Source: Microbacterium sufflavum
Lineage (GTDB): Bacteria; Actinomycetota; Actinomycetes; Actinomycetales; Microbacteriaceae
Direction: 5' to 3'
Length of the DNA: 64,000 nt
Assembly (NCBI RefSeq): GCF_023091155.1
Contig: NZ_JAHWXK010000001.1
Span: 186,001-250,000 of the forward strand
The position numbers and the translations under genes are program-made. This document shows, piece after piece, positions 1 through 42,364 of this stretch. Under the pieces are notes generated by a model, which saw only the letters and a list, made by a program, of their open reading frames with translations, made no database searches and was not told where the DNA came from. Every line of letters begins with the position of its first letter. Position 1 is the stretch's first letter.

Positions 1-73
1 CGAGGCGACGCTCCTGCGGGAGGTCGGGGCCGCCGAGGGGGGTTGCGGGTGCTGCGGTGTCGAGGAGTGCCAT
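1..73 (-). CDS. gabT: 4-aminobutyrate aminotransferase, N-terminal fragment (cut by window edge)
   Basis: Only the first 24 codons lie in the window. Reading leftward from an ATG at 73 gives MALLDTAAPATPLGG followed by PDLPQERRL. The GG-P-x-LPQERR segment is typical of the very start of actinobacterial GabT, the PLP enzyme that moves the GABA amino group to 2-oxoglutarate in the GABA shunt. The gene is divergent from a PucR-family regulator, and PucR-type activators of GABA genes are a known pairing. No clear ribosome binding site is seen upstream. The call rests on this short segment and the context; the catalytic part is outside the window. Confidence 0.6.
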   Translation of the reverse strand, partial: MALLDTAAPATPLGGPDLPQERRL

Positions 74-166
74 GTCGCGAGCGTAAGACCGCCGCCGGGA
101 GGGTCGCATTCGCCGGCTTGTACAATCTGAGCAGCGGATTCGCCACCTCGTACAAAACGGAAGCCC
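74..166. promoter_or_regulatory. Divergent gabT/pucR intergenic region with two GTACAA repeats
   Basis: This 93-bp gap separates the two divergent genes. It holds the perfect 8-bp palindrome TTGTACAA at 118-125 and a second TCGTACAAAA at 148-157. The shared GTACAA core starts at 120 and 150, exactly 30 bp apart, about three helical turns on the same face. This arrangement is what a dimeric regulator controlling both genes would need. Assignment to PucR is inference from position. Confidence 0.4.
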
Positions 167-1675
167 ATGGCCCCCACCGACGCCCCCACGCTGCGGTCCC
201 TGCTCCAGCGCAGGGACCTCGGCCTGACGCTCGTGTCCGACGAGCACGCCCTGCCTGACGGCGCCCTCGACCGGCCGCTGCGGTGGGTGCACGGCTCCGA
301 CCTCGCAGACCCGACGCCCTTCCTGTCCGAGGATCTGGCGCTGCTCACCACGGGCACGCAGTTCGACGGCGCCGCGGACATCCCCTCCTACGTCGGGCGG
401 CTGGCCGACCGCGGCGTGCTCGGGCTCGGCTTCGGCACCGAGGTGCACCGCTCCGGGATCCCGGACGAGCTCATCGCCGCCTGCGCCGCACACGGCATCC
501 CCCTGTTCGAGGTGCCCTACCGCACGCCGTTCATCGCCGTCGCCCGCGCACACTCCGAGGCCATCGCGGCCCAGGCGTACGCCCGCCGCTCCTGGGCGCT
601 GGACACGCAGCGCGCGCTCGCCCTGGCCGCCCTCCGCCCGCGCGGCCTCGACGCGATCGTCGCGGAGCTCGGCCGCCGGCTCGACGTCTGGGCGGGCATG
701 TACGACGCGGCAGGGGCGCTGCTGTTCGCCCATCCGCGTGATGCGGTCGACACCGCCACGCTCGATCTGCTCGCCGACCGCGTGCTGGAGATCCTGGGCC
801 GTGGACTGGAGGCGGGGCAGTCGCTCACGATCGACGCACACACCTTCATGCTCTTCACCGTCGGGCGCGGAGGGCACCTGCGCGGGGTGATCGCGGTCGC
901 CGCCGAGACGCTGGACGCGGAGGCCCGGTCGGTCGTGACCTCGGTGATCGCGATGGCCGGACTGGCGCTGGAGCAGAGCGAGCAGCTCGCCAGGAGCCGT
1001 CGCCGCCTGCACACCCAGCTGCTGCAGTCGCTGCTGGCCGACGACCCCGCGCTCGCCCGCCGCGTGCTCGGTGCCCTCCCTCCGGCACCGATCGTGGTGG
1101 CGGTCGCCGCCGACGCCCCGGCCGGACCGCTGGTCGACTGGTGGGAGCGGCGCCGGGCGGACCACGGCACGGTGTCGTTCCTCGCGGAGTCGCCCGAGGG
1201 CCTGACGATGTGCGTGTCCTCGGGCGACGAGGGACTGTTGGACGAGGTCGCCGAGCGCTTCGGCATCCGCATCGGAGTCTCCGGCCTCGAGGGCTACGCG
1301 GTCTTCTCGCGTGCGCACGCCCAGGCGCTGACGGCCCTGCGGCAACCCGCGTCTGCGGCCGTCGTGCGCTACGCGGACACGGTGGGTGCGAACATCCTCA
1401 CGGCGCTGGCGACCGACGAGGCGCGGCTGGTGGCGGAGTCGCGCCTGGCGCCGCTGCGCGAGCAGGACGCGGCGGTCGGCACCGGACTCGAGCACACGCT
1501 GCGGGTCTGGCTGGAGCACGACGCACGCGCGGAGCCGGCCGCCGCGGCGCTGGGCATCCACCGGCACACCCTGCGCTCGCGGGTCGCGCAGGCCGGCGCC
1601 ATGCTGGGCGTGGATCTGGCGTCGTTCCCCGCCCGCGCCGAGCTCTGGGCGCTGCTGCAGACCGCGCGCGACTGA
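167..1675 (+). CDS. PucR-family transcriptional regulator
   Basis: A 502-residue cytoplasmic regulator. Residues about 7-130 match the PucR N-terminal sensory domain, with LRSLLQRRDLGLTLVS and a D-P-TPFLSEDLALLTTGTQF-type segment. Residues about 440-495 form the C-terminal helix-turn-helix, with AAALGIHRHTLRSRVAQAG and LLGVDL-like spacing as in the HTH_30 family. Members usually sense a metabolite and activate purine, amino acid or GABA catabolism. The divergent gabT-like gene suggests GABA or a related amine as effector, which is inference. A weak GGAAG precedes the ATG by only three bases. Confidence 0.88.
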   Translation: MAPTDAPTLRSLLQRRDLGLTLVSDEHALPDGALDRPLRWVHGSDLADPTPFLSEDLALLTTGTQFDGAADIPSYVGRLADRGVLGLGFGTEVHRSGIPDELIAACAAHGIPLFEVPYRTPFIAVARAHSEAIAAQAYARRSWALDTQRALALAALRPRGLDAIVAELGRRLDVWAGMYDAAGALLFAHPRDAVDTATLDLLADRVLEILGRGLEAGQSLTIDAHTFMLFTVGRGGHLRGVIAVAAETLDAEARSVVTSVIAMAGLALEQSEQLARSRRRLHTQLLQSLLADDPALARRVLGALPPAPIVVAVAADAPAGPLVDWWERRRADHGTVSFLAESPEGLTMCVSSGDEGLLDEVAERFGIRIGVSGLEGYAVFSRAHAQALTALRQPASAAVVRYADTVGANILTALATDEARLVAESRLAPLREQDAAVGTGLEHTLRVWLEHDARAEPAAAALGIHRHTLRSRVAQAGAMLGVDLASFPARAELWALLQTARD

Positions 1676-1777
1676 TAGGCGCCCCGCCCCTGCACCGGCT
1701 CGGGCCCGCGCCACCTCATCCCGCGCGGCTCCATCCCCTCGCCGAGTGCGCGGCTTGCTGCCGACCACCCCGCCTGT

Positions 1778-2221
1778 TCACGCGGAGAAACCGTGCCCTC
1801 GGCGCGAGGCCGGGCGTCCGGTGCGCGCCCGCGGCACCGTCGCGAGGAGGGCCCCGGCGCGCTCGATGTCGGCGGCGGTCTGGGCTACGAGGGCCGCGAC
1901 GGTGTCGAAGCAGAGCGTCGGGCGCAGCAGCGAGAGCAGCTCGACCCGGAGGCGGTGCCCGTACAGGTCGAGGTCCGTGTCGTGCAGGTGCACCTCCACC
2001 CGGCGCTCCCGGCTGCCGTGGAAGGTCGGGTTGGCACCCACGCTCACGGTCGCGGGCATCCCCTCCTGCTCGTCGTCGAGCCAGGCCAGCGCGGCGTAGA
2101 TGCCGTCGGCGGGGAGACCGGGGCCGTCGAGGGCGAGGTTGGCGGTCGGGAACCCGAGGTCGCGTCCTCGACCGTCGCCGGTGACGACCACTCCGGCGAT
2201 CTCGCGGACGGGTGCGCTCAC
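1778..2221 (-). CDS. rcaA: Stand-alone riboflavin kinase (RcaA-like)
   Basis: A 147-residue protein made only of the riboflavin kinase domain. The signature GDGRGRDLGFPTANL (residues about 13-27) binds ATP and flavin, and VEVHLHD carries the catalytic acidic residue. Normal bacterial RibF is about 310 residues and has an N-terminal FAD synthetase domain that is absent here. It would phosphorylate riboflavin to FMN. The GTG start at 2221 overlaps the stop of the flavin reductase gene, so the two are probably translationally coupled. In M. maritypicum G10 a kinase named RcaA belongs to the riboflavin catabolic cluster. The kinase role is well supported; the catabolic role is inferred from neighbours. 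Confidence 0.85.
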   Translation of the reverse strand: MSAPVREIAGVVVTGDGRGRDLGFPTANLALDGPGLPADGIYAALAWLDDEQEGMPATVSVGANPTFHGSRERRVEVHLHDTDLDLYGHRLRVELLSLLRPTLCFDTVAALVAQTAADIERAGALLATVPRARTGRPASRRGHGFSA

Positions 2222-2727
2222 ACGTCTGCGGCGGGAGAGATCGCGCGGTAGCGGCTCTGGTGGAACACGAGCGGCTCGACGTCGTCGAAGAGCGTCACGT
2301 CCTGGATCTCGTACAGAGCGATCTCGTGATCGCCACCGTCGAACGTGCTGTGCAGACGGCAGGTGAGCCAGAGCGCGGCGTCGGCCACCAGCACGGCCCC
2401 GCCGTCGGTGCGGTGCCAGGCGTGACCCCCGAACCGGTCCCCCTCCCGCGCGGACAGGGAGCGGCTGAGCGGTTCGTGGTGTGCCGCGAGGACGCTCATC
2501 CCGAGTTCCGGGACGGCACGCAGCACCGGCCAGGTCTTCGAGGTGCGGGCGGCGCTGACCGCGACGAGGGCGGGCTCCAGGGAGATCGAGGTGAAGGAGT
2601 TGACCGCCATCCCGACGGCGCGGTCGTCCACGACGGCCGCGAGGGCGACCACCCCCGTGGGATAGACCGAGAAGGCACGACGGAGCGCACGGTCGCGCGG
2701 CAGGGCATCGGTCACGGCAGTGGTCAT
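2218..2727 (-). CDS. rcaB: FMN-dependent flavin reductase (RcaB-like)
   Basis: A 169-residue member of the small FMN-binding flavin reductase family, which supplies reduced FMN to two-component monooxygenases using NAD(P)H. The fold markers are YPTGVVALAAVV, the flavin-binding AVNSFTSISLEPALVAVS stretch and the SKTWPVL segment. The ATG at 2727 is preferred over a GTG at 2730 because AAGGA lies six bases upstream of it. Two inverted-repeat operators lie directly upstream (2743-2783). The likely partner is the LLM monooxygenase at 4464-5840, matching the RcaB/RcaE pair of riboflavin breakdown. Confidence 0.88.
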   Translation of the reverse strand: MTTAVTDALPRDRALRRAFSVYPTGVVALAAVVDDRAVGMAVNSFTSISLEPALVAVSAARTSKTWPVLRAVPELGMSVLAAHHEPLSRSLSAREGDRFGGHAWHRTDGGAVLVADAALWLTCRLHSTFDGGDHEIALYEIQDVTLFDDVEPLVFHQSRYRAISPAADV

Positions 2728-2742
2728 CACGAGTCCTTTCGA

Positions 2743-2758
2743 TAGTCAACTTTGACTA
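2743..2758. promoter_or_regulatory. Operator O1, perfect inverted repeat TAGTCAA-N2-TTGACTA
   Basis: A perfect 7-bp inverted repeat with a two-base spacer lies 16 bp upstream of the flavin reductase start. The same element recurs at 8736-8751 and, with two changes, at 2768-2783. Identity of site and spacer at both operon promoters of the island points to one regulator, most simply the PadR protein encoded next door. Confidence 0.75.
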
Positions 2759-2767
2759 AGGCGACTA

Positions 2768-2783
2768 TAGACAAATTTGACCA
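2768..2783. promoter_or_regulatory. Operator O2, imperfect inverted repeat TAGACAA-N2-TTGACCA
   Basis: A second copy of the operator with one change per arm and the same two-base spacer. It lies 25 bp from O1 and about 37 bp upstream of padR. Together O1 and O2 occupy the divergent flavin reductase/padR gap, so padR is probably autoregulated. Confidence 0.65.
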
Positions 2784-2819
2784 CTCAAACAACCGGGAAC
2801 GCGCATCCCAGCCGTTAGC

Positions 2820-3524
2820 ATGAACGACATGTCGACCACCCGTCTCGTCGTCCTCGGCGCCGTGAAGCAGTTCCAGCCGGTACACGGCTACTTCCTCCGG
2901 CGAGAACTGATGACCTGGCACGTCGACGAGTGGGCGCACATCCAGCCCGGCTCGATCTACAACGCCCTCCGGGCCCTGGAGGTCGACGGGTACATCGCGG
3001 AGAGCGGCACCGAGGCCGAGGGCAAGCGCCCCGCCCGCACCACGTACCGCATCACCCCCTCGGGCGAGGTCGAGCTGCAGCGGATGCTGCGCGAGAACCT
3101 CTGGAACGTGGCGGCCTTCGACACCCAGGCGATCATGACCGTCGCCTCGTTCATGTTCGTGCTGAGCCGCCAGGAGGTCATCGCGGGCCTGGAGCACCGC
3201 CTCATCAAGAGCGACGCGATCATCACGCAGAACGGCTTCGATGTGCAGGACACCCTGCGCTCCGAGACCACGCCGAAGTACGTGCGCGAGATCTTCGACC
3301 TCTCCACCGCCCGGCTCACCGCCGAGAAGCAGTGGCTGCTCGACCTGCTGGAACGGCTGCGGGCCGGCGAGTACGCCTTCGCGGGCGAGACGGCCGAGGA
3401 CACGACGCCGGAGCGGGAGGCGGCGGCCGCCACGACGAAGAGCCCCGCCAAGACGGCGAAGAAGAGCACCGCAACGACGGCGACGAAGAGCACCGCGAAG
3501 ACGGCGACGAAGAGCACCGCGTAG
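2820..3524 (+). CDS. PadR-family transcriptional regulator of the riboflavin island
   Basis: A 234-residue regulator. Residues 4-85 are the PadR winged helix, with LVVLGAVKQFQPVHGYFLRREL and the wing PARTTYRITPSGEVELQRML. A C-terminal helical dimerisation segment (about 100-190) follows, with EKQWLLDLLERL. The last 28 residues are a repetitive Lys/Thr/Ala/Ser tail that could bind DNA non-specifically. There is no Shine-Dalgarno. A TAGCAT -10-like hexamer at 2816-2821 lies seven bases before a second ATG at 2829, so a leaderless start at 2829 is a good alternative. PadR proteins are mostly repressors released by small aromatic ligands; riboflavin or lumichrome is a plausible ligand by context only. 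Confidence 0.87.
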   Translation: MNDMSTTRLVVLGAVKQFQPVHGYFLRRELMTWHVDEWAHIQPGSIYNALRALEVDGYIAESGTEAEGKRPARTTYRITPSGEVELQRMLRENLWNVAAFDTQAIMTVASFMFVLSRQEVIAGLEHRLIKSDAIITQNGFDVQDTLRSETTPKYVREIFDLSTARLTAEKQWLLDLLERLRAGEYAFAGETAEDTTPEREAAAATTKSPAKTAKKSTATTATKSTAKTATKSTA

Positions 3525-3545
3525 ACGGCGACGAAGAGCACCGCG
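3450..3545 (+). repeat. Four tandem 24-bp repeats in and past the padR 3' end
   Basis: The unit AAGACGGCGACGAAGAGCACCGCG (8 codons, K-T-A-T-K-S-T-A) is present in about four copies, starting near 3450, 3474, 3498 and 3522. The fourth copy starts with TAG where the others have AAG or ACG, and this TAG is the padR stop codon. The frame then stays open through one more copy to a TGA at 3552-3554. Confidence 0.8.
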
Positions 3546-3586
3546 AAGGACTGACCGCACCCCGCGCCGCCCCCTCCGGACCGGCC

Positions 3587-4471
3587 TCAGCGCGTCGCCG
3601 TCAGCTCCGCCAGCGCCTCGGGCGTGAGCGCCGGAGTGGTCGCTCCCCGGTGCAGCGCCACGATCGCCCCCGCGGCGCACGCGAGGGCGAGGGCGTCCTC
3701 CACCGGCACCCGACGGGCGAGCGCACCGGCGAGCGCGCCGCAGAACGCGTCGCCCGCGCCCGTCGTGTCGACCGGATCGATACGGAACGCCTCGACGTGC
3801 ACAACCGGGCGACCGGTGCGGTGCAGGTCCACTCCCCCGGCGCCGCGCGTGAGCACCACGGTCGCGGCCCCGGCGCGGTGCAAGAGGTCGATGCCGCCGA
3901 GCTCCGCGCACTCCGTCTCGTTCACCACGAGCACGTCCACGCACTCCAGCAGCCCGAGGGTCGCGGCGTGGGCGGGGGCGGCGTTCAGCACGGTCGTGGC
4001 GCCGGCGTCGCGCGCCGCCCGCAGTGCCGCCGACACCGCGGGCACCGGCACCTCGAGCTGCGCCAGCACGACCGCGGCCCCGGAGACCCCGGCGACCGCA
4101 TCCTCCGGCGACAGCTCGGCGTTCGCGCCGGCCCCGACGATGATGCTGTTGTCGCCGCCCTCCAGCGCCAGCACGTGCGCGACCCCGGTCGGGGCGGTAT
4201 CCGAGCGGCGCAGGGCCGAGGTGACCCCGGCGTCGGCGAGCGTGTGCTCCAGCAGTGCGGCGCCCTCGTCCGTCCCGACCACACCGCAGAACCGCGTCGG
4301 TGCGCCGCTGCGGGCCGCGGCGACCGCCTGGTTCAGGCCCTTGCCGCCCGCGAAACGGCCGCCGGCGCGGCCCAGCAGTGTCTCGCCGATGCGCGGGGGG
4401 CGCGACACCTCGACCACCAGATCGAGGTTCGCGCTCCCCACGACAGCGACGCCGGACAGCTCGTCAGACAC
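3587..4471 (-). CDS. rcaD: Ribokinase (RcaD-like, PfkB family)
   Basis: A 294-residue PfkB-family sugar kinase. It has the N-terminal VVGSANLDLVV, the first signature GRFAGGKGLNQAVAAARSG (about residues 38-56) and the second signature DTTGAGDAF with catalytic Asp near 241, all typical of ribokinase. It phosphorylates D-ribose to ribose 5-phosphate. The GTG start at 4471 overlaps the end of the monooxygenase gene by 8 bases, so both are on one message. In the M. maritypicum riboflavin cluster a ribokinase (RcaD) handles the sugar released from riboflavin. The rbsK-type activity is well supported; the riboflavin link is by context. Confidence 0.87.
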   Translation of the reverse strand: MSDELSGVAVVGSANLDLVVEVSRPPRIGETLLGRAGGRFAGGKGLNQAVAAARSGAPTRFCGVVGTDEGAALLEHTLADAGVTSALRRSDTAPTGVAHVLALEGGDNSIIVGAGANAELSPEDAVAGVSGAAVVLAQLEVPVPAVSAALRAARDAGATTVLNAAPAHAATLGLLECVDVLVVNETECAELGGIDLLHRAGAATVVLTRGAGGVDLHRTGRPVVHVEAFRIDPVDTTGAGDAFCGALAGALARRVPVEDALALACAAGAIVALHRGATTPALTPEALAELTATR

Positions 4472-5840
4472 GCGCCATCGACCGGCGGTACGTCGAACCC
4501 ACGTGCGACTCGGCCAGCGCGGGCGTCGGGGTTCCCATCAGCCGCTCGCGCAGCGACTGCGGCTCGTCGGACGGCTCGACGATCGCGCCGCGCTCCTTCA
4601 GGATCGGCAGCACGTGCTCGATGAAGTCCTTGGTGGACGCCGGCGGGATGACCGGGGCGAACAGGAAGCCGTCGAGGTCGGCACCGTCGGCGAGCGCGAT
4701 CATCCGGTCGGCCACCTGCTCCGGGGTGCCGACGAGCGGGCGGGCGCCGACGCCGTGCGCGTGCCAGTCGCCCAGCACGTCGCCCACGGTCTTGTCGGCG
4801 AAGCGCGCGACCTGGGTCTGCGACAGCTCCGTGCTCAGCTCCGACATCGGTGTGCTCGGGTCGTACGACGACAGGTCGAGGCCGGTGAACCAGGCGTAGG
4901 AGGCGACCGTGACCTCGGGGTTCTGGGCGTCGGCGACCTCGGCGTACGTGCGACGAGCCTCCTCCTCGGTGCTGCCGACGACGGCGGCGAACGCGGACAT
5001 GATCTTGACCTCGTGCGCGGCGCGGCCGTTCTTCACGGCCTCTTCGCGGATCGCGGTCGCGTGGCCGCGGAGCTGCTCGACCGAGCCGCTGCCGACGAAG
5101 ATCGCCTCGCCGTGCTTGCCGCCGAACTCGCGTCCGGCCGGAGACGCGCCCGCCTGGAACAGCACCGGGGTGCCCTGCGGCGAGCGCTGCGTGTTGCCGT
5201 AGCCGTGCGAGCGGAAGTACGGGCCGTCGTGCGCGATGCGGTGCACCTTGGCCGGGTCGGCGAAGCGGCCGGACTTGTCGCGCTCGAGCGCCCCCTCCTC
5301 CCACGCCTGCTCCCACAGCTTGTACACGACCTGCATGAAGTCGTCGGCCATCAGGTAGCGCTCGTCGTGCCCGACCATCGGCACCCCGAAGCCCTGCACG
5401 GCGGTGTCGGCGGTGCCGGTCGTGACGACGTTCCAGCCGATGCGCCCGCCGGACAGGATGTCGAGGCTGGCCATGCGCCGCGCGAACGCGTAGGGCGGCT
5501 CCAGCAGCGTCGACCCGGTGGCGACGAGTCCGAGGCGCGTGGTCTGCGGAATGAGAGCCGCGAGGAGCACGGCGGGGTCGAGTCGCGGCAGGTCGAGGCC
5601 TTCGATCGAGCAGATGTCGGGACGCTCGCCCGCGACGTCGGCCCACCCCCACGCGTCGGCGAGGAACAGGAAATCGAAGCCCGCGTCCTCCGCCATGCGC
5701 GCGGTGTCGCGCCAGTAGTCGAGTCGGTCGAAGAGGTAGCGCCCGTTGTCCGGGTGGCGCCAGGTCGCAGTGCCGGAGTCGTTCGCCTGCGCGTTCTCGA
5801 AGAGGCCGAGGCGCAGCTGCTTCACGGGGTGATCGGTCAT
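4464..5840 (-). CDS. rcaE: LLM-class FMN monooxygenase, probable riboflavin lyase (RcaE-like)
   Basis: A 458-residue luciferase-like monooxygenase of the NtaA/SnaA/DszA group. Marker segments are the N-terminal RLGLFENAQ, DILSGGRIGWNVVTTGT, GTPVLFQAGASPAGREF and the C-terminal GTPEQVADRM. Such enzymes use FMNH2 from a separate reductase and O2 to cut C-N or C-S bonds. The kinase, reductase and ribokinase around it match the riboflavin catabolic cluster of M. maritypicum, where RcaE splits riboflavin into lumichrome and ribose. The ATG at 5840 has GGAAGG eight bases upstream. Family is certain; the riboflavin substrate is inferred, and a sulfonate or nitrilotriacetate-type substrate cannot be excluded from this protein alone. 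Confidence 0.82.
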   Translation of the reverse strand: MTDHPVKQLRLGLFENAQANDSGTATWRHPDNGRYLFDRLDYWRDTARMAEDAGFDFLFLADAWGWADVAGERPDICSIEGLDLPRLDPAVLLAALIPQTTRLGLVATGSTLLEPPYAFARRMASLDILSGGRIGWNVVTTGTADTAVQGFGVPMVGHDERYLMADDFMQVVYKLWEQAWEEGALERDKSGRFADPAKVHRIAHDGPYFRSHGYGNTQRSPQGTPVLFQAGASPAGREFGGKHGEAIFVGSGSVEQLRGHATAIREEAVKNGRAAHEVKIMSAFAAVVGSTEEEARRTYAEVADAQNPEVTVASYAWFTGLDLSSYDPSTPMSELSTELSQTQVARFADKTVGDVLGDWHAHGVGARPLVGTPEQVADRMIALADGADLDGFLFAPVIPPASTKDFIEHVLPILKERGAIVEPSDEPQSLRERLMGTPTPALAESHVGSTYRRSMARV

Positions 5841-5902
5841 GGCGGGTGCCTTCCTTGTGGGTGGGTGGTGTCGTCGTGGGGTGTCCGGGCACGCCGGGGG
5901 AA

Positions 5903-5930
5903 CCCCGGGGGCGGGGGCGCACCCCCGGGG
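5903..5930. terminator. GC-only hairpin between transporter permease and rcaE
   Basis: CCCCGGGGG at 5903-5911 pairs with CCCCCGGGG at 5922-5930 around a 10-base loop. It lies in the 104-bp gap between the permease and monooxygenase genes on the same strand. There is no following T-tract, so it could limit read-through or stabilise an RNA end. Confidence 0.35.
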
Positions 5931-5944
5931 CGGGTGGGGCCGGG

Positions 5945-6793
5945 TCAGCCCTTGGCGGTGACCTCGCCGTCGCTCCACCACAGGACGCGCTTGCGCACGA
6001 CCGCGAGGAGCACGATCAGGAGCACGCCGAGCAGGCAGAGCAGCGCGATGCTGGCCCAGGTAACGGGGAGGTTCGCCTGTGCGGCGGAGGTGGTGACGAG
6101 CGAGCCGAGGCCGGCCTGCTGCCCGGCGGCGACGAACTCCGCGACCGCGGCTCCGACCACGGCCAGCGGCAGGGCGATCCGCAGCCCGGCGAAGACATAG
6201 GGCATGCTGCCCGGGAATCGCAGTTCGCGGAAGATCTCCCACCGCGAGGCGTGCAGGGTCTTGAACACGTCGAGCGCCTTCTGGTCGACGTCGCGGAGTC
6301 CGGCGAGCGAGTTGACCAGCATCGGGAAGAACACCACCAGCCCGGTCACGATGAACTTCGGCACCATGCCGAAGCCGAACGCGACGACCAGCGCGGGGGC
6401 GATCGCGACGATCGGCGTGACCATCACGATGATCACGAGCGGCATGACGGCCCGTTCGATGATCTGGAACTCTGCCATCACCACCGCCAGCAGGAACCCG
6501 GCGAGGATGCCGGCCGAGGCGCCGACCACCACTTCGAGCAGCGTCACCAGGAAGTTCGACCAGTACATGCCCGCGTCGTCGACGAGGCTTCCTCCGATCG
6601 CCTCCAGCGTGGGCAGCACATAGGGGTTGGTCCATGCGACGATCTGCCACAGCAGCGCCGCGATCACGAAGGTGATGAGGGTGGGCAGCCACGATCCCCA
6701 GCGCAGCCACGACGGGACGCCGCGGCGGGGGGTCTCGCGCAGGCGCGCGGTGGCGAGGGTGGCGGTGGTGTCTCTCATGGTCAGCTCAGACAT
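5945..6793 (-). CDS. ABC transporter permease, SsuC/TauC type (probable riboflavin importer)
   Basis: A 282-residue inner-membrane permease with about six transmembrane helices. The EAA-type loop around DVFKTLHASRWEIFRELRFPG contacts the ATPase. It belongs to the nitrate/sulfonate/taurine family of permeases. The ATG at 6793 is preferred because GGAGAAGG precedes it at good distance; it overlaps the end of the ATPase gene by 8 bases. A second ATG at 6778 is possible. It forms the membrane channel with the flanking ATPase and lipoprotein. RibXY-type riboflavin importers use the same kind of NMT1-associated system, which fits the neighbouring genes. Confidence 0.87.
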   Translation of the reverse strand: MSELTMRDTTATLATARLRETPRRGVPSWLRWGSWLPTLITFVIAALLWQIVAWTNPYVLPTLEAIGGSLVDDAGMYWSNFLVTLLEVVVGASAGILAGFLLAVVMAEFQIIERAVMPLVIIVMVTPIVAIAPALVVAFGFGMVPKFIVTGLVVFFPMLVNSLAGLRDVDQKALDVFKTLHASRWEIFRELRFPGSMPYVFAGLRIALPLAVVGAAVAEFVAAGQQAGLGSLVTTSAAQANLPVTWASIALLCLLGVLLIVLLAVVRKRVLWWSDGEVTAKG

Positions 6794-7583
6794 GGGCCTT
6801 CTCCGTCTGCGCGCGCAGCGCACCGCGCACGACTGCTTCCAGGTCGCGGAACTCGTCGGTGGCGTACGCCTCCTCGGTGCGGGGCCGCGGCAGGTTCACG
6901 TCGATCACCTCGGCGATGCGCCCGGGGTGGGCGGCCATCACCACGATCCGGTCCGAGAGCATGATGGCCTCGGGCACGGAGTGCGTGACGAACATGACGG
7001 CCTTGCGGTTGGACTGCCAGAAGTCCAGCAGGGCGATGCGCTGCAGGTCGCGGTTCATCTCGTCGAGGGCCGAGAACGGTTCGTCCATCAGCATGATCGC
7101 CGGGTCGAACACGAAGGCCCTGGCGATCGCGGCGCGCTGCTGCATGCCGCCGGACAGCTGCCCGGGGTACTTCTTCAGGGCATGCCCGAGGCCGAAGGTC
7201 GACAGCAGCTCCGCGGGGTCGCGGAGGGCGCGGCCGCCGTTCGCCCCGCGGTTGATCCGCACGGGGAGCTCGACGTTCTCGCGCACGGTCTTCCACGGAA
7301 GCAGGGCGGGCGACTGCGGCACGAGGCCGATCTTCTTGTCGCGGGATGCCGCGGTGACGCTCTCGCCGTCGATGGTCACGGTGCCCGAGTCGGCGTCGAG
7401 GAGCCCGGCGACGACCTTGAGCAGCGTCGACTTGCCGCAGCCGCTCGGGCCGATCACCGACACGAACTCGCCCATGCCGATCGTGAGGCTCACGTCGTCG
7501 AGCACGGTGACCCTGGCTCCGTCGACCCCGAACGACTTCGAGACGTTGCGCACCTCGACGCCGGCGCCTGTGGCCGCGGTCAT
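6786..7583 (-). CDS. ABC transporter ATPase, SsuB/TauB type
   Basis: A 265-residue nucleotide-binding subunit. It shows Walker A GPSGCGKST, the Q-loop LVPQSPALLPWKTVREN, the signature LSGGMQQRAAIARA and Walker B IMLMDEPFSALDE followed by the H-loop FVTHSVPEA. It powers import by the adjacent permease and lipoprotein. Its ATG shares one base with the stop of the lipoprotein gene (TGATG), a sign of translational coupling. It closely follows the layout of NitT/TauT importers; the cargo is inferred as riboflavin from the island. Confidence 0.9.
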   Translation of the reverse strand: MTAATGAGVEVRNVSKSFGVDGARVTVLDDVSLTIGMGEFVSVIGPSGCGKSTLLKVVAGLLDADSGTVTIDGESVTAASRDKKIGLVPQSPALLPWKTVRENVELPVRINRGANGGRALRDPAELLSTFGLGHALKKYPGQLSGGMQQRAAIARAFVFDPAIMLMDEPFSALDEMNRDLQRIALLDFWQSNRKAVMFVTHSVPEAIMLSDRIVVMAAHPGRIAEVIDVNLPRPRTEEAYATDEFRDLEAVVRGALRAQTEKAHV

Positions 7584-8686
7584 CACTTCGCCGTCCAGAT
7601 GAGCTCGTCGCCGTCGTAGAGGTCGGCCACCAGGTCGGGGTCCATCATGTCGGCGATCGCGGGCAGGTTCTTCACGTCGCCGTACTCCTGCACGATCTCG
7701 TACTCGGGCTCCCACATGGCCTTGGTCTGCACGCCGGGGTTGCCGCCCGCGCTCTCGCGCACCCAGGCCGACTCGACCTCCCACGTGCGGGCGAGCTGGT
7801 CGCGCGGGAACGCGGCGCCCTGGCCGTTCTCCTCCGCGAGCTCGGCGAGCATGTCGATGCACTCGTCGGACTCGTCGAGGCAGAACTGCAGTGCCTTGAG
7901 GCTCGCGCGCAGGAAGTCGGCGGCGACCTCGCGGTGCTCGGCGAGGAAACGCGAGTTCACCTCCATCACGTTGTAGGTGCCCTCGACGCCGAGGTCGGAC
8001 GGCAGGAACTCGCTGAACGGGAGGTCCTGCGCCTTGAGGGTCTGCGGCTGGTTGGAGGCGTAGCCGACGATCGCGTCGACCTGCTCGCGCACGACCACGG
8101 TGGGGTCGTAGTTGGTCATCTTCACCATCTCGACCTTCGACACGTCGACGCCGGCCTCGTCGAGCATGGCCGAGGCGATGGGCGTGAGGTTGATGAAGTA
8201 GCCGAGCGAGCCGCCCTCGAGGTCGGTGAGGTCCTCGAGCTTCTCGTTGCCGAAGATCGAGAACGGCGGGGTCGTGCCGTAGGTCGCGACGGCCGTGAGG
8301 TTCTTGCTGTTGGCGGCGGCGAGCATCACGTCGGACGCGGAGCCGAGGGCGGTGAACTGCGCCTGACCGGAGGCGACGAGCTGCTGTCCGTTCGCGCCGG
8401 AGGCGTTGATCTCGACATCGAGGCAGAGGTCGTCGAAGTAGCCGAGCTCCTTCGCGAGGAACACGTCGAGCTGCCCGGCGCTGGCGGAGTAGCCGTAGCC
8501 GGAGATGTAGGTGATGGTGCCGGCGTCCTGGTTGCGCTGGCAGGCGTCGGATCCGTCTGCGCTCGTGGGGGCGGTATCGCCGCCCGGCGTCTGCGCGGAG
8601 CATGCTCCGAGCGTCAGCGTGGCGGCGAGAACGCACGTCAGGGTGGCAGTGGTGCGGAATCGGGTTTCCGCAGAGGAAGTAGCCAT
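7583..8686 (-). CDS. NMT1/THI5-like substrate-binding lipoprotein
   Basis: A 367-residue extracytoplasmic binding protein. The signal peptide ends in the lipobox LTLGAC with the lipid-bearing Cys at residue 29. The mature part has a periplasmic fold typical of NMT1 proteins, with ITYISGYGYSASAGQLDVFLAKELGYF near the start, GYFINL and LRASLKALQFC. The ATG at 8686 has GAGAAGGGA upstream; another ATG at 8711-8713 lacks one. It heads the transport-lyase-ribokinase operon, directly downstream of operator O3. RibY, a known riboflavin-binding lipoprotein, belongs to the same fold class, so riboflavin is the leading guess. Confidence 0.87.
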   Translation of the reverse strand: MATSSAETRFRTTATLTCVLAATLTLGACSAQTPGGDTAPTSADGSDACQRNQDAGTITYISGYGYSASAGQLDVFLAKELGYFDDLCLDVEINASGANGQQLVASGQAQFTALGSASDVMLAAANSKNLTAVATYGTTPPFSIFGNEKLEDLTDLEGGSLGYFINLTPIASAMLDEAGVDVSKVEMVKMTNYDPTVVVREQVDAIVGYASNQPQTLKAQDLPFSEFLPSDLGVEGTYNVMEVNSRFLAEHREVAADFLRASLKALQFCLDESDECIDMLAELAEENGQGAAFPRDQLARTWEVESAWVRESAGGNPGVQTKAMWEPEYEIVQEYGDVKNLPAIADMMDPDLVADLYDGDELIWTAK

Positions 8687-8735
8687 GAGGGTCCCTTCTC
8701 GGCCGTTCGTCATTGATGGCTCGATGAAAGTAACA

Positions 8736-8751
8736 TAGTCAATCTTGACTA
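8736..8751. promoter_or_regulatory. Operator O3, perfect inverted repeat TAGTCAA-N2-TTGACTA
   Basis: The same 16-bp element as O1, perfect in both arms, lies about 50 bp upstream of the lipoprotein gene that starts the long operon. It links this operon to the reductase-kinase operon and padR about 6 kb away. Confidence 0.75.
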
Positions 8752-8795
8752 AGCAAGATCAAACTAAGTTCGTCCGGCACGATCGGGCGACGGGC

Positions 8796-8824
8796 GCACG
8801 ACTCTCCCGACCGTCGGGTCGTGC
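8796..8824. terminator. Hairpin downstream of the DUF6226 gene
   Basis: GCACGAC at 8796-8802 pairs with GTCGTGC at 8818-8824, and CCCGA at 8806-8810 can pair with TCGGG at 8814-8818 inside it. It sits in the gap after the stop of the DUF6226 gene and before operator O3, so it probably ends that transcript. No T-tract follows. Confidence 0.35.
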
Positions 8825-8888
8825 ACGCGGAACACCGTCGTGCATACGGGGCACGAACGGGCGGAGGTGGGGCCGGGGTCAGGCGGGG

Positions 8889-10016
8889 TCAGGCGGGGAT
8901 GGAGCGGAGCGGCCAGGCGGGCCACCAGCCGTCGTCGAGCCCGCGCAGCAGGGCGGCCGCGCGCTCTCGCGCCTCGGCGGGCATCTCCGGTGCAGGACCG
9001 GAGCTGCTCTCCCGCCGCTCGCCGTCCGGCGACCGGATCTCCGTGTACAGCCACGCACGGCGACCCACGGGGTACTTCTCCCGGAAGCCCCCGGCGGCGA
9101 CCGACAGCACGATCCGCTCCAGCTCGTCCGCCGCGGTCTCGGCGGTCTCGTCGCAGGCATCGCAGATGCACGAGGGCACGATCGCGTGGAAGTGGGCACC
9201 CGCATCGATGCGGACGGAGGGAACGCCCGGCGTGATCGTGATCTGCGCACCGCGCGCCGGTTCGAGCACGACGTGCTCGGTCCCGCCCTCCCCCCTCTCT
9301 CGCCGCACCTCGACCTCGTACTCGCGACGGAGGTGCTCGATGAGCGCGTCGACCACGAGGGACAGCGGTGCGAAGCGCTCCGGGTGGGATTCCCGGGAGT
9401 ACGACTCCTCCGGCGCGATGCCGTCGGGCCAGCGGTGCCCGTAGGGGATCCCCTCGCCGCGGTCGTCGTGGAAGGTCAGGATCGGGAGAGCAGGCCGGAC
9501 ATACGCGCGCGCCGGGACGACGACGACCGCGGGAGCCGAATCCTCCGCGGACAGCGCCCTCATCTCCTCGTCATCGATGTCGTCCTGCTCCCACGGAGCG
9601 AGCATCTGCAGGAACGCATCCCGCTGGCCGGGCTGCTGCACCATCCCCTGCACGAGACCCGCGACCGGGATCGAGAGGGTGTTGGTCCCGATCTCCGGCT
9701 CACTCGTCATCCGCCATGTCGCGGCCGGGTGCACGACCGCGATGACGTTCCCCACGAACCGCGCCGCCCCCGCGGCCAGCGTCTCGCTCTCGAGGACCTC
9801 AGGATGACCGGCGACGAAGTCCCACGTCGCCCCGAGATCGACGGCGAGCAGCGCGGGGTCGACCTCGTGGCCCCGCGCGAATTCGGCGAACGGCTCGAAG
9901 CCGTCGACGAACCGGACCGGCCCCGGAGCATCCGCCTGCGGGGGCATCCACAGGACCGCGGCGGCACCCGCCTCGGGCATCGGGCCGAGGGGACCGGGGA
10001 AGACAGCACTGCTCAT
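8889..10016 (-). CDS. DUF6226 family protein
   Basis: A 375-residue protein of unknown function. It has no signal peptide or membrane segment. The C-terminal half resembles the actinobacterial DUF6226 family and contains CICDACDE (two Cys pairs that might bind a metal) and the closing WWPAWPLR segment. The N-terminal half mentions no recognisable catalytic motif. It stands alone: ramB is 22 bp upstream on the same strand and a hairpin lies downstream. It could be co-transcribed with ramB, but no shared function is evident. Confidence 0.7.
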
Positions 10017-10038
10017 CGACCGAGCGTACCGAGCGGGG

Positions 10039-11490
10039 TCACCGCGGCGCGTGGGCCTCCAGGAACTCGTACACGTCGGTGGTGTCCACGCCGGGGAAGG
10101 CGCCGGTGGGCAGGGTCGCCAGCAGCGTGCGCGGGGTCTTCACGTTGGGCCACGACTGTTCGCGCCACCGCTCCTCCAGCTCCGCGGGGGCACGGCGGCA
10201 GCACACCTCGACCGAGTGCTTCGAGACGCCGCGGTGCGGGGTGTCGCGGCCCACGAACCACTTCGTGTCGTCGAACCGCACCCCCACGCTCACGGAGTGC
10301 AGCCCCTCGCTCGACGCCTCGACCCGGGCCGTGCACCAATAGGTCCCGTTGCCCGTGTCCGTGTACTGGTAGTACGGGTTGAAGCGGTCGTCCTCGTCGA
10401 ACACGACCCGCGAGGTCCACCGTCGACAGCACATCTGTCCCTCGATCGCGCCCAGCCGATCGGTCGGGAAGTTCACGTCGTCGTTCTCGTACGCCTTGGT
10501 GATGGTGCCCGACTCGTGCACCTTGAGGAAGTGCACCGGGATGTCGAGGTGCCGTGTCGCGAGGTTGGTGAAGCGGTGCGCGGCCGTCTCGTACGACACG
10601 GAGTAGGCGTCGCGGAGGTCCTCGATCGAGATCGCACGCCGCTGCTTCGCGTCCTTGAGCGTCGGCACGACGTGGGCCTCCGGGATGAGGAGGGCGCCCG
10701 TGAGGTAGTTCGTCTCGACGCGCTGCCGCAGGAACTCGGCGTAGCTGCGCGGCTCGGCGTGCCCGAGGATCCGGCTCGAGAGCGCCTGCAGCACCGCCGT
10801 CCGCGCATCACCCTTGGCCGGGACGCTGCTCGACAGGTAGAGCCGTCCGTGGGCGAGATCGGCGACGCTGCGGGTGGTCTGCGGCAGGTCGGGGGCGTAG
10901 TGCAGCGTGAAGCCGAGGTAGGCGGCGATCTCCGAGGCCGTCCGCTGCGTGAGGGGTCCGCCCGGGTGCCCCACCGCGGCGAGGATCTCCGACGCCTTGG
11001 CCTCCAGGTCGGCGAAGTGGTTGTCCTGCCTCCGCATCAGGTGCCGCAGCTCCACGTTCGCCCGCCGCGCCTCCTCCGGCGTGGCCGCCCGCTCGTCCCG
11101 CAGCCGGTCGATCTCGCCGTGGAGCGCGAGCATCGCCTTCAGCGCATCGGTCGGCACGGTCTTCGCGATGCGGAACGGATCGATGCCGAGCGCCCGGAAC
11201 GTCTGGCCCTTCATCGCCCGCTCCAGCGCGACCTCCAGGCTGCTGCGCTCGTCGAGCGGCTCGCCCTCCAGCAGCGCGTCGATCGTGACCCCGAGCGCTC
11301 GCGCGATCGCCTGGAGCTGCGTGAGCTTGGGCTCGCGCTTGCCGGTCTCGATCATCGACAGCTGACTGGGAGCGCGGTCCACCGCCGTCGCGAGCTCTTC
11401 GAGGGTCATCCCCTGAGCGGTGCGCAGCTGACGGATCCGTCGCCCGATCGTGAGGGCGTCGGTGTCTTCTGCGGCCTCGGTGCTGGTCAT
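10039..11490 (-). CDS. ramB: RamB/ScfR-type regulator of acetate and short-chain fatty acid metabolism
   Basis: A 483-residue regulator. Residues about 13-70 are an Xre-type helix-turn-helix ([20 protein letters not shown] and [13 protein letters not shown]). The middle carries the IrrE-like metalloprotease-related domain, and the C-terminal part is the ScfR-type domain with RRW, CCRR and TPHRG segments. In Corynebacterium RamB represses aceA, aceB and its own gene when acetate is absent. It is divergent from aceA here, which matches that role. The ATG at 11490 is chosen because upstream codons cross into the promoter region. Confidence 0.87.
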
Positions 11491-11520
11491 GGCGGGGATT
11501 CTGTCACGAAAACAGAAAGA

Positions 11521-11533
11521 AGGGCAAACTTCT
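11521..11533. promoter_or_regulatory. RamB-like motif in the ramB/aceA gap
   Basis: The minus strand here reads AGAAGTTTGCCCT, and its core AGTTTGC (11524-11530) resembles the core of the Corynebacterium RamB box. It lies between the divergent ramB and aceA genes, so it could serve both. Only one half-site-like match was seen. Confidence 0.35.
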
Positions 11534-11622
11534 CCTTCGATCCGGCCGAGAAGAGCGCCGAAGTTCACACAGAGTGGGACCACGCCACCGGCACCGACGC
11601 CGGTTCCATCCGAGGAGACACC

Positions 11623-12948
<1,326 letters not shown>

Positions 12949-42179: not shown

Positions 42180-42364
42180 TAGTCGATCTCCTCAACCTTG
42201 ACGAGGTGGGCGACGGTCTTGACGTAGCCGCGCGTCTGCGCGTCGTCGGGGCGGACGGTGCTGTCACCGATCCGCTTGAGACCGAGGCTGCGCAGCGTGT
42301 CGCGCTGGTTCTGCTTCTCGCTCACCTTGGACTTGATCTGCGTGACCTTGAGTCGCGCGGCCAT
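42179..42364 (-). CDS. rpmD: Large ribosomal subunit protein uL30
   Basis: A 61-residue protein starting [21 protein letters not shown] and including [16 protein letters not shown]. Its start overlaps the rpsE stop and its stop overlaps the rplO start, so all three are coupled. Bacterial-type short L30. Confidence 0.96.

Follow-up and report, generated by a model that had tools for sequence, protein, structure and literature searches.

Bacteria must avoid destroying their own flavin cofactor, which raises the genuine question of how the breakdown of riboflavin is turned on. The mechanism of this induction has been named as worth finding out (PMC5399262). Here, we address it in a stretch of 64,000 nucleotides from Microbacterium sufflavum (assembly GCF_023091155.1, contig NZ_JAHWXK010000001.1, positions 186,001 to 250,000; hereafter the window), which carries the known rca cluster for converting riboflavin to lumichrome. 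A 16-bp palindrome, TAGTCAA-N2-TTGACTA, was found at the presumed promoters of both rca operons. Very probably, it is the operator of the PadR protein encoded at 2829-3524 within the cluster, a dimer of which would block both promoters until a flavin releases it.

The palindrome in the window and in the genome

Scanning of the window returned two exact sites and one site with two mismatches, at the very positions where the original prediction had placed two perfect copies and one near copy. These putative operators and the gene of their presumed binder are as follows.

2743..2758, no strand assigned: operator 1, exact TAGTCAACTTTGACTA, in the gap between the reductase gene and padR, its start 5 bases downstream of the -10 box presumed for the reductase-kinase operon
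2768..2783, no strand assigned: operator 2, weak, TAGACAAATTTGACCA with 2 mismatches, between the -35 and -10 boxes of the presumed reductase promoter and 25 bases from operator 1
8736..8751, no strand assigned: operator 3, exact TAGTCAATCTTGACTA, filling the spacer between the -35 and -10 boxes presumed for the transporter-lyase-ribokinase operon
2829..3524 (first-listed start 2820), plus strand: padR, PadR subfamily-1 repressor, presumed operator binder

The only remaining matches in the 64 kb, at 42189 and 44356, have three mismatches each. Five matches with three mismatches or fewer compare with 0.15 expected per window by chance, a number reached by none of 100 shuffles. Nor is the motif common in the genome: across all 3,632,603 bases, the only two exact copies are those of the rca cluster. 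Allowing two mismatches adds three sites (2768, C1:407378 and C1:1489474), the last of which, TAGTCCACATGGACTA, lies directly upstream of another PadR gene. Although the three sites of the cluster are real, those at 2743 and 2768 share one reductase/padR gap, and the three sites thus amount to two control points rather than the three originally counted.

Conservation in relatives and dependence on PadR

We then considered 366 Microbacterium genomes, of which 42 contain the lyase (E <= 1e-150), its identity being 81-100% in 38 of them and 66-68% in four. The exact word is present in 40 genomes, including all 38 with a close lyase, where it occurs 73 times (two sites each in 35 genomes and one each in three). 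The 39th, G721, was missed by the lyase limit; its exact site is on a contig of 3.8 kb that also carries lyase and transporter genes. The last, G561, has the sole exact motif of the 366 genomes that is not tied to an rca locus; this site, TAGTCAAATTTGACTA (L243 near base 3636; G561:C1:367135), lies between TetR-type and esterase-type genes, named by eye. The reversed pattern, used as a control, was found in one of the 366 genomes. Moreover, 104 sites with up to two mismatches are present in a set of 56 rca loci, made up of the window's first 20 kb, 41 loci from the genus and 14 from other genera of the family. All of these sites lie within 330 bases upstream of padR, the reductase gene or the binding-protein gene. 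No further site at this threshold was detected in the 997,990 bases of these loci. The motif therefore keeps the same places in related clusters and is not common in the genome, so that the proposed regulon withstands both of the sequence checks that had been set for it.

A total of 68 lyase loci from named genomes (L244-L311), with 56-100% identity to the lyase of the window, were further examined for PadR; 12 more matches at 36-40% identity to the query were excluded from this set. The word (up to two mismatches) is present in 49 of the 50 loci that have a PadR gene on the stretch covered. Besides Leifsonia, Agromyces, Salinibacterium, Nocardioides and Demequina, the loci with both PadR and the motif include the alphaproteobacterial genera Devosia (among them Devosia riboflavina, L250), Maritalea and Pelagibacterium. 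Among the 18 loci without PadR, 17 have nothing nearer than four mismatches; these come from Streptomyces, Kitasatospora and Catenulispora together with two marine loci (L305 and L306; 56-57% identity), and two of the 17 are contigs shorter than 5 kb. The remaining one (L307) is a 3,958-base Microbacterium contig that ends before padR and carries the word. Counted in this way, with loci that are related, the association between motif and PadR gives a Fisher p of 7e-14. The motif thus goes with PadR rather than with the rca genes alone, which supports the single regulon, with the adjacent PadR as its predicted binder, that had been proposed for this locus.

Putative operators and presumed promoters

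The promoter elements around the putative operators are listed below (sbp denotes the solute-binding protein gene that heads the transporter-lyase-ribokinase operon).

2764..2792, minus strand: presumed reductase-kinase promoter, TTGTTT (2792-2787), 17-base spacer, TATAGT (2769-2764)
8727..8756, minus strand: presumed sbp promoter, TTGCTT (8756-8751), 18-base spacer, TACTTT (8732-8727), with TGT before TACTTT
2816..2821, plus strand: presumed padR -10 box TAGCAT, 7 bases before the ATG at 2829

Of 38 loci, 35 have the operator of the transporter-lyase operon flanked by TTGC[TA]T-N18-TANNNT; the pattern is absent in L093 and L096, and L100 is cut off. On the reductase side, 29 of 37 gaps contain TTGTTT-N17-TANNNT, and the -10 box is followed by the operator at a constant distance in 33 of the 37. 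The reductase spacer contains a weak second operator, 24-27 bases away from operator 1 or its counterpart, with at most three mismatches in 21 of the 37 relatives' gaps, and no other position in any of these gaps matches as well. Alignments of the relatives point to likely gene starts at 2727 (reductase), 2829 (padR) and 8686 (solute-binding protein). In addition, TANNNT precedes ATGTC by 5-8 bases in all 37 padR gaps, which suggests that the padR transcript is leaderless and starts at 2829.

Since the operators overlie the presumed promoters, repression of both operons is suggested. A PadR dimer would occupy 8736-8751, inside the -35/-10 spacer of the ABC-transporter/riboflavin-lyase/ribokinase operon, together with 2743-2758 (the start region) and the weak site 2768-2783 (the spacer) of the flavin reductase/flavokinase operon, and would thereby block both promoters. 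Binding of riboflavin, FMN or lumichrome would free PadR, and uptake and cleavage of riboflavin would then be induced jointly. The binding, the promoter boxes, the sign of the effect and the ligand are all put forward here as predictions. For strain TPU 3598 grown on riboflavin, production of the enzyme was taken to be inducible (PMC5399262), and a riboflavin complex exists for LmrR, a protein of the PadR family (4ZZD, as cited in an excerpt of PMC6457526); repression lifted by a flavin is therefore the simplest reading, and a flavin is probably the ligand. Whether the operators also control padR directly is uncertain, because they lie ~46-86 bases upstream of its probable leaderless start.

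This upstream location could aid transcription in the padR direction, and PadR might accordingly bind as an activator or dual regulator, positive at one promoter. We consider this unlikely: filling of the presumed -35/-10 spacer, as seen for the lyase operon in the 35 loci above, usually means repression, and operator 1 lies just downstream of a presumed -10 box, a place typical of repression.

Sister palindromes at other PadR genes

A search of Microbacterium at E <= 1e-12 yielded 67 further PadR genes, of which 58 were analysed. Within 300 bases upstream, the frame TAGTNNA-N2-TNNACTA is present exactly in 46 of the 58 and with at most one mismatch in 48, compared with none of 58, exact or at one mismatch, in a control stretch within each PadR gene. 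Among the 46 exact palindromes, 43 read TAGTCCA-N2-TGGACTA. The 44 PadRs with the helix GT.YH have this form exactly in 43 cases and with one mismatch in the 44th. The sites in the window, their conservation, their dependence on PadR and these sister operators are what the sequence comparisons show directly.

The genome of the window encodes a second such PadR (G000:C1:1489474-1491674; L236) with TAGTCCA-N2-TGGACTA upstream and, directly downstream, an MFS-type transporter gene that is drug-pump-like by eye. This PadR/MFS pair shares the 16-bp frame with the rca PadR but differs in its arms (TAGTCCA) and helix (GTLYHT versus GSIYNA).

A one-residue helix code (His for CCA and Asn for CAA) was tried and failed in places: Asn is accompanied by TATTCCATCTGTACTA in L192 and TAGACAAATTTATCTA in L184, His by TAGTACA-type arms in L185, L187 and L188, and Ser by GATTCAAGTTTGAATC in L189, while four further PadRs with His (L198, L211, L215 and L234) have no site in the frame. 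The relation between helix and arm thus has several exceptions, and it tracks the family tree.

A broader proposal, which we advance tentatively and with somewhat more doubt than belief, is that the rca operator belongs to a PadR frame shared across the lineage, TAGTNNA-N2-TNNACTA (with TANTNNA arms in Actinomycetes at large). Variation would be confined to the inner positions of the arms and tuned by the helix residue that follows the conserved tyrosine: Asn would go with TCAA, as in rca PadRs, and His with TCCA, as in the common sister class. The block of regulator, operator and pathway would have crossed intact between Actinomycetota and Alphaproteobacteria.

Observations against the proposal and other explanations

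Several observations count against these interpretations. Devosia pacifica (L293) possesses PadR and yet has three mismatches at both places, and the four genomes of the 66-68% lyase clade have only sites with one or two mismatches and no exact one. Scanned with a strict consensus, neither the reductase nor the sbp site yields a sigma-70-type promoter (0 matches); the boxes are presumed, resting on conservation and on our own looser pattern. The frame TAGTNNA-N2-TNNACTA occurs at just two of the nine PadR-family genes of the window genome and, outside the genus, exactly in two of 26 relatives of the second PadR, several non-Microbacterium relatives showing instead, for example, TATTCCA-N2-TGGAATA or TACTCGA-N2-TCGAGTA. 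Many loci are close kin, and the named loci overlap the 366-genome set, often as the same assemblies, so that the counts are not independent. The PadR-less loci are nearly all from Streptomyces and its relatives and also have no ABC transporter, differing in lineage and operon structure. Because of this, and because the loci are related, the association of motif and PadR is a strong correlation, short of proof.

A different binder is very improbable. The PucR-family gene (167-1675) adjoins the cluster here and in many Microbacterium relatives, but it was rejected as the binder, as it is present in the stretch of only 14 of the 50 PadR-bearing lyase loci, versus 49 of 50 for the word. A global factor would have sites beyond rca loci, and a single exact site is left unexplained in the 366 genomes; moreover, other PadR genes are preceded by the sister palindromes.

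Least credible of all is retention of the word for its role in an RNA leader or riboswitch rather than as a protein site. The sbp leader, from the operator to the start codon, hardly varies among 38 loci, but the riboswitch was rejected after an Rfam scan of 1-12000 gave no FMN riboswitch or other credible match (a single match at E 0.43, far below the cut-off), the fold z is just -1.65, the word at sbp lies upstream of the presumed transcript start, and a changed form of it stands beside unrelated PadR genes. The word is thus almost certainly the operator of PadR, whose binding is predicted from these comparisons of sequence.

The PadR protein and known systems

The padR product matches PF03551 with 50.7 bits (cut-off 27), and PadR folds were found as matches of its predicted structure (mean pLDDT 74.7, pTM 0.66). 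It has ~180 residues before the tail and a multi-helix C-terminal domain, and its domain, length and fold place it in PadR subfamily 1. An alignment of 26 of the 50 rca PadRs shows no variation at the recognition-helix residues G41, S42, Y44, N45, A46 and L47. A 24-bp tandem repeat of 4.8 copies at 3433-3548 gives the protein an H1-like tail rich in lysine, alanine and threonine, with seven lysines here, nine in a genome of the same species (L064) and 0-1 in the other rca PadRs listed. An in-frame TAG ends the tail repeat earlier here than in L064. A conserved H1-like domain was rejected on these lysine counts, and the tail is special to this species.

The subfamily-1 repressors, including PadR of Bacillus subtilis, have the canonical operator ATGT-N8-10-ACAT, as given in excerpts of PMC3506622. 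The rca PadR resembles the B. subtilis protein in the fold of the DNA-binding domain and in length, and its TAGT-N8-ACTA has the same outer geometry as ATGT-N8-ACAT, also spanning 16 bp. In contrast, its half-site is TAGT instead of ATGT, in a 7-N2-7 palindrome, and its target is flavin catabolism rather than phenolic acid decarboxylase. With outer tetranucleotides TAGT/ACTA, the site departs from the canonical motif, which is typical but not universal. LmrR shares the PadR-type winged helix but is small, belongs to subfamily 2 and acts on a multidrug transporter, as described in excerpts of PMC3506622, with no rca genes involved. A literature search found no paper linking riboflavin catabolism with PadR, the key rca papers being outside its scope, and absence from print is not claimed; it likewise found none linking 'PadR family' with TTGACTA, while 'padr' with TGGACTA gave only unrelated titles and abstracts. 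The operator/PadR pair combines a known kind of PadR with a half-site other than the canonical one, and the lineage-wide frame would be the more novel part.

Genes of the rca cluster

The rca cluster for riboflavin catabolism in Microbacterium maritypicum G10 was reportedly described by Xu et al. in 2016, and the pathway of Devosia riboflavina is said to have been described by Kanazawa et al. in 2018. Both have the lyase, flavin reductase, riboflavin kinase and ribokinase in common with the window. The passages covered of PMC12746152, which reports the rca cluster from M. maritypicum G10, are enzyme-centred and contain neither 'regulator' nor 'PadR' (0 occurrences). The genes in the window, besides padR, are listed below.

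167-1675: PucR-family gene, adjoining the cluster
1778..2221, minus strand: flavokinase-domain protein, single-domain riboflavin kinase (PF01687)
2218..2730, likely start 2727, minus strand: flavin reductase (PF01613)
3587..4471, minus strand: PfkB-family ribokinase (PF00294)
4464..5840, minus strand: riboflavin lyase/monooxygenase (RcaE; solved structure 5w48)
5945..6793, minus strand: ABC transporter permease
6786..7583, minus strand: ABC transporter ATPase
7583..8713, likely start 8686, minus strand: NMT1/THI5-like solute-binding protein with a lipoprotein signal

The lyase matches 5w48 (Riboflavin Lyase) with E = 1.6e-222 over residues 4-454, and the best NCBIfam ribokinase match, TIGR02152, reaches 222 bits, under its cut-off of 299.65. 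In the nearest named relative, M. sufflavum SSW1-51 (L288), the cluster proteins are 99-100% identical. The flavokinase is ~57-67% conserved in close Microbacterium loci of other species, compared with mostly >85% for lyase, PadR and transporter, as if under weaker or different selection. The sbp leader (8686-8735) and the first codons, wobble positions included, are nearly invariant in 38 Microbacterium loci, a degree of conservation beyond what coding by itself accounts for.

Some loci are arranged differently. In L101, L102 and L104, from the 66-68% lyase clade, reductase and kinase are divergent and upstream of the binding-protein gene instead of beside padR, and the degenerate motifs relocate together with them. 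The Kitasatospora and Streptomyces rca loci L276 and L296 have no PadR, motif or ABC transporter; a PnuC-type gene (PF04973) follows the flavokinase and is plausibly an alternative flavin importer.

Implications

For riboflavin catabolism, the result is a defined candidate regulator and its three predicted target sites. The 16-bp operator is portable and could find use in a flavin biosensor. The PadR paralogs with matched operators form a natural series for working out PadR specificity. If the lineage-wide frame is true, the operators of thousands of unstudied PadRs would become readable from sequence.
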